Below, piece after piece: positions 44,986 through 46,203 of a stretch of DNA of 64,000 nucleotides. Position numbers and translations under genes: made by a program. Within the stretch, counting starts at the first letter, position 1. The number at the start of each line of letters is the position of its first letter. This stretch comes from Kineobactrum salinum (lineage in GTDB: Bacteria > Pseudomonadota > Gammaproteobacteria > Pseudomonadales > Halieaceae), in the NCBI RefSeq assembly GCF_010669285.1, contig NZ_CP048711.1, positions 2,170,001-2,234,000 of the forward strand. Direction: 5' to 3'. The notes beneath the pieces are model-generated. The model saw nothing but the letters and a program-made list of their open reading frames with translations. It was not told the origin of the DNA and did no database searches.

Positions 44986-46203
44986 GTGGCAATTTCCCAG
45001 CTCCAGATACACCATATCAGGAACTTGCAGCAGCTCTACCTGCAGGAGCTTTCCCAGATCAATATCATCTACGGCGCCAATGGCAGCGGCAAGACCAGTG
45101 TCCTGGAGGCCATCCACATGCTGGGTATGGCGCGCAGTTTCCGCAGCGGTGGCAGCAGGGCAATTGTGAGTCATGGCCAGCCTCGCTGCACAGTATTTGG
45201 CGTGGCGCGGAGTGCTGCGGGTGGTCGCGGTATTCCGATGGCAGTCCAGCGGGCCGTGGGCGGTGAGGTTGAGATCAAGGTCGCAGGCCAGCAGGTCCGA
45301 AGCGTGGCCGAGCTGGCCGAGCGCCTGCCGCTGCAAGTGATGAATGCGGATAGTTTTGGCCTGCTGCTAGGGCCGCCCGGTCTGCGGCGGCAGTTTCTAA
45401 ACTGGGGAGTGTTCCACGTGGAACATCGCTTCTACCCGGAGTGGCTAAGGTTTCAGCGATGCATAAAACAGCGCAATAAGCTGCTGCGGCGTGATAAACT
45501 AGGCGATGGCGAACTCGCGGTATGGACGCGGGACTTGGCCGTGGCAGGTGAGCGCATCAATGCCTTCCGCCTGGACTATTTCAGCGCACTTGCGCCGCGC
45601 TTCAGGGAGATCATGGCCCGTCTTGCGCCTGAGTTGGAGGCTCTGGAGCTGCGCTTCCGCCCGGGCTGGGACAGGACTTTGAGCTACTCCGAGGCCCTGG
45701 ATGGCAGTAGTAGGGCAGACAGGGACCAGGGCTATACGCACGTAGGACCGCAGCGGGCGGATATCAGGGTCACCATTGGGGGCTACTCTGCGGCGGAGAC
45801 GCTGTCGCGGGGCCAGCAGAAGCTGCTCGTCTGCGGGCTGAAGCTGGCCCAGGGAGAGCTGATGAGCGAGCTCGGAGGGGGCCATGGCGGCTGCGTCTAC
45901 CTGATTGATGATCTGCCCTCGGAGCTGGACCAGCCGCACTGCCGCCTGGTCTGTGGCGAGCTAGTTCGCATGAAGGCCCAGGTCTTTCTCAGCTGTGTCA
46001 GGCGGGAGGACCTTGAGGGCATGTGGCCCACTGCCACAGCATTGAAATTGTTCCACGTGGAACATGGATCGCTGCTTCCTGCCATCGAGGATGCTGCCAG
46101 CCAGAATAATGACGAGGAGGGGCCCCCATGGATGGCCGCCTACCTAATTAAGCAAGGCCCTGTGAAGACTCTTCTTCCAGGCGCGGTAACGCATGAAATA
46201 TGA
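44986..46203 (+). CDS. recF: DNA repair and recombination protein RecF
   Basis: SMC-like ATPase that helps load RecA at gaps. Walker A is [19 protein letters not shown]; the signature region is [21 protein letters not shown]; Walker B is [12 protein letters not shown]. It starts at GTG 44986 ([14 protein letters not shown]) with only a weak ribosome binding site. At 405 residues it is longer than E. coli RecF (357), mainly through a C-terminal tail of about 35 residues that holds the second parS copy. A GC hairpin without a T run lies in the dnaN-recF gap (about 44924-44945). Two perfect parS sites are embedded in frame and encode FHVEH each time. Confidence 0.95.
45410..45425. promoter_or_regulatory. 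parS: parS site 1 inside recF
   Basis: A perfect 16-bp palindrome, TGTTCCACGTGGAACA, identical to the parS consensus bound by ParB in Pseudomonas-type chromosomes. Within recF it encodes VFHVEH. It lies 24 kb from parAB and 3 kb from oriC. Confidence 0.9.
46049..46064. promoter_or_regulatory. parS: parS site 2 inside recF
   Basis: A second identical TGTTCCACGTGGAACA palindrome, 624 bp after the first and in the same codon register, encoding LFHVEH near the RecF C terminus. Confidence 0.9.

Follow-up and report, generated by a model that had tools for sequence, protein, structure and literature searches.

The partition sites parS1 and parS2 of Pseudomonas aeruginosa lie within recF (PMC5521831). 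Excerpts of a mutational study of this organism (PMC4368675) describe that the intragenic parS were mutated without amino-acid change, that plasmid replication was no longer blocked under ParB excess when parS1-3 were mutated, and that ParB binding in vitro was 2- to 10-fold less for nearly all modified parS tested. According to the same excerpts, a strain in which parS2 was the one native site left showed no par phenotype, and both ParB binding and a role in segregation were shown for the P. aeruginosa sites. Kineobactrum salinum resembles P. aeruginosa, as far as these sources describe it, in having two parS within recF near oriC. The K. salinum 16-mer, TGTTCCACGTGGAACA, has the same letters as P. 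aeruginosa parS2 and parS3, and parS1 differs from it in the last base (TGTTCCACGTGGAACC) in the sequences given there (PMC4368675).

The recF palindromes of Kineobactrum salinum and their gene context

In the window (the whole 64,000-bp stretch of K. salinum DNA that was analysed), recF was located at 44986..46203 on the plus strand, with a GTG start and 405 residues (TIGR00611, 324.5 bits, cut-off 172). The preliminary description had reported two exact copies of TGTTCCACGTGGAACA in this gene in one codon register, and both were found. Slot 1 (45410..45425) and slot 2 (46049..46064) are perfect palindromes, listed without strand; slot 1 is read as (V)FHVEH with FHVEH at RecF residues 143-147, and slot 2 as (L)FHVEH at residues 356-360. 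The spacing, given before as 624 bp, was measured as 639 bp from start to start (213 codons), with 623 bp in between.

A search of the 4,649,503-bp genome showed that TGTTCCACGTGGAACA has two exact copies, both in recF, and the reversed-pattern control gave 0 exact matches in the same genome. When positions 5 and 12 were left free, 0.0097 exact sites per genome were expected by chance at the base composition of the window. With up to two mismatches this pattern matched nine places in the genome, of which two were exact, none had one mismatch and seven had two; its reversed control also matched nine, which leaves the recF pair as the one signal above background. No further exact or one-mismatch parS was found in the K. 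salinum genome (assembly rated 97% complete), and the next closest match within the window, at 55007, has three mismatches. A chance origin of the 16-mers was rejected, with about 0.01 exact sites expected per genome against two found and 0 in the reversed control.

The parB and parA genes reported earlier in the window are both present, on the minus strand between 20.1 and 21.8 kb. The product of parB (20090..20980, minus strand; TIGR00180, 205.9 bits, cut-off 58.45) is the predicted binder of both slots; it scored 230.2 against the Noc model TIGR04285, under the cut-off of 315. The adjoining parA (20996..21805, minus strand) was named as the partition ATPase by position and superfamily only, because its ParA/MinD-superfamily matches included none above a curated cut-off among the matches listed (25 of 30). 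The candidate oriC (42038..42165, no strand assigned) consists of two DnaA boxes (42038, plus; 42157, minus) upstream of dnaA (42289..43779, plus strand); dnaN (43805..44911) and gyrB (46193..48634) also lie on the plus strand. An oriC candidate in the window had been mentioned in the preliminary description; against the present candidate, the cumulative GC-skew minimum of the window is at 29773, inside an island and away from the boxes. The distances of the slots from the DnaA boxes beside dnaA are about 3.3 and 3.9 kb. Both 16-mers are thus 16-bp consensus palindromes that occur above chance and close to the candidate origin, in a genome with parA and parB. Judged by these sequence features, they are almost certainly parS, the centromere of the chromosome.

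The island at 25049-37456 is flanked by mnmG and mnmE, whose names were assigned by eye, and separates parAB from the candidate oriC. It carries a type I restriction-modification set (HsdS-, HsdM- and HsdR-like), a Schlafen AlbA_2 protein, a piece of a Mutator-family transposase and a 1263-residue protein without a Pfam match at 1e-5. At 39234-40516 on the minus strand, yidC is apparently broken across frames, with one ORF covering the periplasmic domain and the beginning of 60KD_IMP and a second ORF covering what remains of 60KD_IMP; yidC is usually essential, and the break therefore suggests a sequencing error or a frameshift. Behind gyrB, at 48711-52844, ORFs resembling a copper-type P-ATPase, a MerR-like regulator and a multicopper oxidase were recognized by eye.

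The closest named RecF sequences, from Kineobactrum and Haliea, had 65% identity. Slot 2 had been placed in an extended RecF tail, which was thought to be shaped or kept by parS. Instead, slot 2 lies at an ordinary C-terminal RecF motif that was present in all 29 family relatives read, and the extra 45 residues follow it, from G361 to the stop (46066..46203, plus strand). These relatives have RecF of 361-386 residues, against 405 in the window, and 29/29 have the slot while lacking such a tail. The idea of a parS-shaped tail was rejected, because slot 2 precedes the tail and the tail holds no parS; the broader proposal, an influence of parS on the recF sequence, holds in modified form.

Distribution and codon constraint in the class

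RecF was searched in the K. salinum genome and its relatives (58 genomes, 54 matched; the partial match in G024 was left out) and in an even draw from the class (184 genomes including K. salinum, 153 matched; G086, G133, G150, G197, G201 and G212 were left out as weak or partial). Three duplicates (L001, L002 and L053) were dropped before counting, DNA was obtained for 198 distinct recF genes, and the slot codons were read from the aligned proteins. Slot 2 was cut by a contig end in L060 and L201 and was scored as absent, and 20 loci (L033-L052) with too little flank were kept outside the neighbourhood tests. For the other classes of the phylum, 25 recF genes, picked for family spread, were taken from 106 matched genomes. 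Fifteen further in-class recF genes were hand-picked and kept outside the 198. A second scan, of named records, used the patterns L[IVL]DD[LFI]x[SA]ELD and DWG[VL]FH[VS][EK], and the best 80 of 564 records were read; since these patterns are biased towards slot 1, the scan was not used for frequencies. Genome-wide parS totals are per-genome counts, with a reversed control of 1 site in 184 genomes. Because the recF sequences are related by descent, counts over leaves, and the p-values drawn from them, do not represent independent observations.

Within two mismatches of TGTTNCACGTGNAACA, slot 1 was present in 178 and slot 2 in 170 of the 198 recF genes (two of the absences being contig ends); both slots were present in 159/198 and neither in 9/198. 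At up to one mismatch, both were present in 151/198 and neither in 16/198, and the exact sequence occupied both slots in 91/198 and neither in 47/198. The draw from the order of K. salinum had both slots in 51 of 53 recF genes. Of the 174 exact parS in the 147 class genomes with a recF locus, 151 lay within recF; 39 of these genomes had no exact parS anywhere, and 27 of the 39 had a one-mismatch site at a slot. Among the 15 extra in-class genes, at up to two mismatches, 10 had both slots, 4 had neither and L228 had slot 2 only, with one mismatch. The best 80 of the 564 scan records, at the same limit, gave both slots in 60, slot 2 only in 8 and neither in 12, of which 5 were from Marinomonas. 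The 39 named Pseudomonadaceae recF genes aligned with the window at both slots. Outside the class, neither slot was found in the 25 recF genes, the closest sequence being 4 mismatches away, and no 16-mer of the form.GTT.CACGTG.AAC. was found in the approximately 7 kb around recF in these 25 genomes.

Parsimony on a recF tree (FastTree topology built without the slots, midpoint-rooted) reconstructed the root with both slots present; slot 1 was then lost 15 times, and slot 2 was lost 17 times and gained twice. It seems reasonably likely that, from the class ancestor onward and in most of the class, the main centromere has been locked in two recF codon slots and that ParB recognition, and not RecF function, has dictated part of RecF. 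The parS pair in recF is known from one species, and its class-wide history appears to be undescribed: no account of the pattern was found in the literature searched, a scope outside which the parS survey of Livny et al. 2007 fell.

Single-codon use was compared over 160 recF columns in which the commonest residue is degenerate and present in at least 80 sequences. Seven parS columns (residues 142, 144, 145, 146, 357, 358 and 359) ranked 1-7, with one codon used in 96-99%; the eighth column reached 78%, and the medians were 65% (two-fold) and 33% (four-fold). This share was used instead of a codon-surprise score, whose values in the columns of the two slots were small, from -0.14 to 0.31 bits. 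In the recF of the window, E is encoded by GAG 23 times and by GAA 4 times, and both parS E codons are GAA. The alignment proposed in the preliminary description, as a check on whether the FHVEH codons are invariant at the nucleotide level, showed these codons to be held far beyond the amino-acid need of RecF.

The constraint extended to the flanking bases. The codon after E/K began with C in 348/348 kept slots, giving H, Q, P, R or L, and in 10 of 42 readable lost slots; G preceded TTY in 347/348 kept slots. With these bases fixed, the neighbouring residues vary only among such codons. At slot 1, 24 kept genes had K for E, and all 24 had TTT (Fisher 2e-11, a leaf count ignoring ancestry); on the parsimony tree, 15/15 E-to-K changes ended with TTT and 0 with TTC, so that the arms of the palindrome stay matched. 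The link was weaker at slot 2, where genes with K for E had TTT in 30 and TTC in 10 (Fisher 7e-7, leaf count) and 12 of 19 E-to-K changes ended with T (p 0.04).

Synonymous variation in close relatives had been named as a finding that would speak against such constraint. In the 39 Pseudomonadaceae, the H, V and E codons of slot 2 were identical in 39/39, but slot 1 varied, with GTC for GTG in 6 and GAG for GAA in 4, while FHVEP was unchanged. The synonymous decay of slot 1 in 6/39 indicates that single slots are dispensable, and the persistence of FHVEP where the slot 1 DNA had decayed indicates that some of the motif may be maintained at the protein level. G-x-F-H also persisted at slot 1 in several ParB-less genomes of the class, and the slot 2 region outside the class often read F-x-V-x-x-G. 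From these alignments, F, V and G of slot 2 look native to RecF, and H, E/K and H/Q look parS-given.

Slot loss, ParB loss and relocation

Genomes were counted as ParB-bearing when ParB matched at 1e-10, weak partial matches being excluded. In the six genomes with a readable recF and no chromosomal-type ParB, 0/12 slots were intact at up to one mismatch and 1/12 at two (slot 2 of G211). The ParB searches gave no match at 1e-5 in G211, G248 and G340, a match of only 1.4e-11 in G271, and partial matches only in G102 and G224 (2e-28 and 7e-26). The slots of G211 read TTC CAT GCG GAA CCT and TTC CAC GTA AAA CGT; its ParB-bearing congener G082 keeps both, one with one mismatch and one exact. G170 and G171, likewise without a ParB match, are fragmented assemblies and were kept apart from the six; slot 2 is retained in G171, and a site in another frame occurs in G170.

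Among the 142 ParB-bearing genomes of the class, at up to one mismatch, 102 had both slots, 28 had one and 12 had none. These genomes with one or no slot, together with the 12 of 80 scan records with neither, show that the recF sites are not obligatory; each of them is individually dispensable, and certain lineages do without both. Only 4 of the 178 flanked loci had neither dnaN nor gyrB as a neighbour of recF; 3 of them had lost both slots and 1 had lost slot 2. Two of the four displaced recF belong to G102 and G224, which have no chromosomal-type ParB, and displacement is confounded there with ParB loss. G189 is the one clear case of slot loss with recF displacement: both slots are lost, recF and parB would be about 0.93 Mb apart if its single contig forms a circle, and the two parS of this genome, one exact and the other with one mismatch, are 18 and 25 kb away from parB.

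In 6 genes that had lost a slot, parS was found beside recF. In L182, GGTTCCACGTGGAACA occurs a few codons beyond slot 1 and is read in another frame (GSTWN); the C-terminus of L198 contains a perfect parS at the place of slot 2, again in another frame (CSTWN), and a perfect site lies at codon 293 of recF in L195. An exact off-slot parS inside recF or at most 1.5 kb away occurred in 8 of 39 slot-losers, L198 among them, against 5 of 139 genes that keep both slots (Fisher p 0.0015, ancestry ignored). Three extra exact parS were also observed just beyond recF in each of L138 and L200, which suggests a local gain of sites. Slot 2 of L228 (G298) carries a one-mismatch parS relic, TGTTTCATGTGGAACA, and the exact parS sites of this genome lie tens of kb away.

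Proposed mechanism, alternatives and known systems

The ParB encoded at 20.1-21.0 kb would bind both recF 16-mers, spread over the dnaA-dnaN-recF-gyrB region and, with ParA, move newly copied origins apart. Binding, spreading and segregation in K. salinum are proposed here by analogy with P. aeruginosa and with general knowledge of ParABS. The two slots would be old, fixed positions within recF, at a distance of about 3-4 kb from the candidate oriC, kept through selection at the DNA level for ParB binding; parS, and not RecF function, would then dictate several codons of recF and a few residues of its product. This account, in which the 16-mers are ParB-bound chromosomal parS held in recF by DNA selection, is considered very probably correct. 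It draws on observations of the sequence, location and uniqueness of the 16-mers, their conservation in the class, the codon constraint, the loss with ParB and the relocation to nearby positions.

FHVEH could instead be a RecF protein motif that is needed twice, the palindrome being a by-product of codon choice. Both slots do lie at recognisable RecF motifs, F143/H144 occur in several ParB-less genomes, and FHVEP is kept in Pseudomonadaceae with decayed slot 1 DNA. Such a motif leaves unexplained the use of one codon at 96-99% in seven columns against 78% or less elsewhere, the shift of residues (H/Q/P/R/L) while the parS bases stay, the parS read in another frame as GSTWN in L182 and CSTWN in L198, and the lack of the motif in 25/25 recF genes of other classes. 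The protein-motif-only reading was rejected on the single-codon use of the parS columns, and a protein explanation is considered very unlikely. A different regulator that recognises CACGTG could also occupy the slots and control the expression of recF or gyrB. The slots have the CACGTG core, and the genes PA0003-PA0015 near P. aeruginosa parS1-4 are described as lowered by ParB excess (PMC5521831, in excerpt), so the place can affect transcription. However, the full 16-bp parS is kept, beyond CACGTG alone, slot loss goes with loss of chromosomal-type ParB, and excerpts of PMC4368675 describe binding of these sequences by P. aeruginosa ParB; such a regulator is given slightly less credence again.

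The slots might also be relics, with segregation in K. salinum through other parS, as G189, G298, G328 and G376 have lost slots and have parS elsewhere. The genome of K. salinum has no other exact or one-mismatch parS (at the rated completeness of 97%) and both of its slots are perfect palindromes, and the probability of the relic explanation is put close to nil. For the slots as ParB-bound parS, ParB loss, the departure of recF from the origin and the frame shift of parS serve as built-in controls. The slots are a clean case in which a need at the DNA level, over deep time, appears to dictate silent as well as amino-acid-changing positions in a conserved protein. Conserved RecF residues and the apparent codon bias at the slots are consequently not by themselves proof of protein function, and existing genomes allow a test of what determines the location of bacterial centromeres. 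If the class-ancestral lock is real, RecF motifs would record ParB losses, centromere moves and the parS variants that each ParB accepts.

Comparison with known systems showed both differences and likeness. Other chromosomal ParABS systems with parS outside recF have the same parS class and a ParA/ParB pair, with the site elsewhere. In Caulobacter, parS is described as lying beside parAB (PMC4368675, in excerpt). In G298, the exact parS sites lie 68-72 kb before the end of a contig that has recF at its start, or about 71-75 kb from recF if the contig is circular, and in G328 they lie on a different contig from recF. Excerpts of a Caulobacter study (PMC5815017) describe that transposon-carried extra parS were enriched at recF/gyrB/CCNA0160 and that extra parS were best tolerated near the organism's own cluster; as presented there, the recF-gyrB hot spot consists of experimental insertions and not of native recF parS. 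P. aeruginosa, in the excerpts cited, has eight further parS, two of high affinity near oriC, whereas K. salinum has the two recF sites only. Alignment of the 39 Pseudomonadaceae suggests that the slot positions are those of P. aeruginosa parS1 and parS2, and the final base would indicate which of the two corresponds to which slot.
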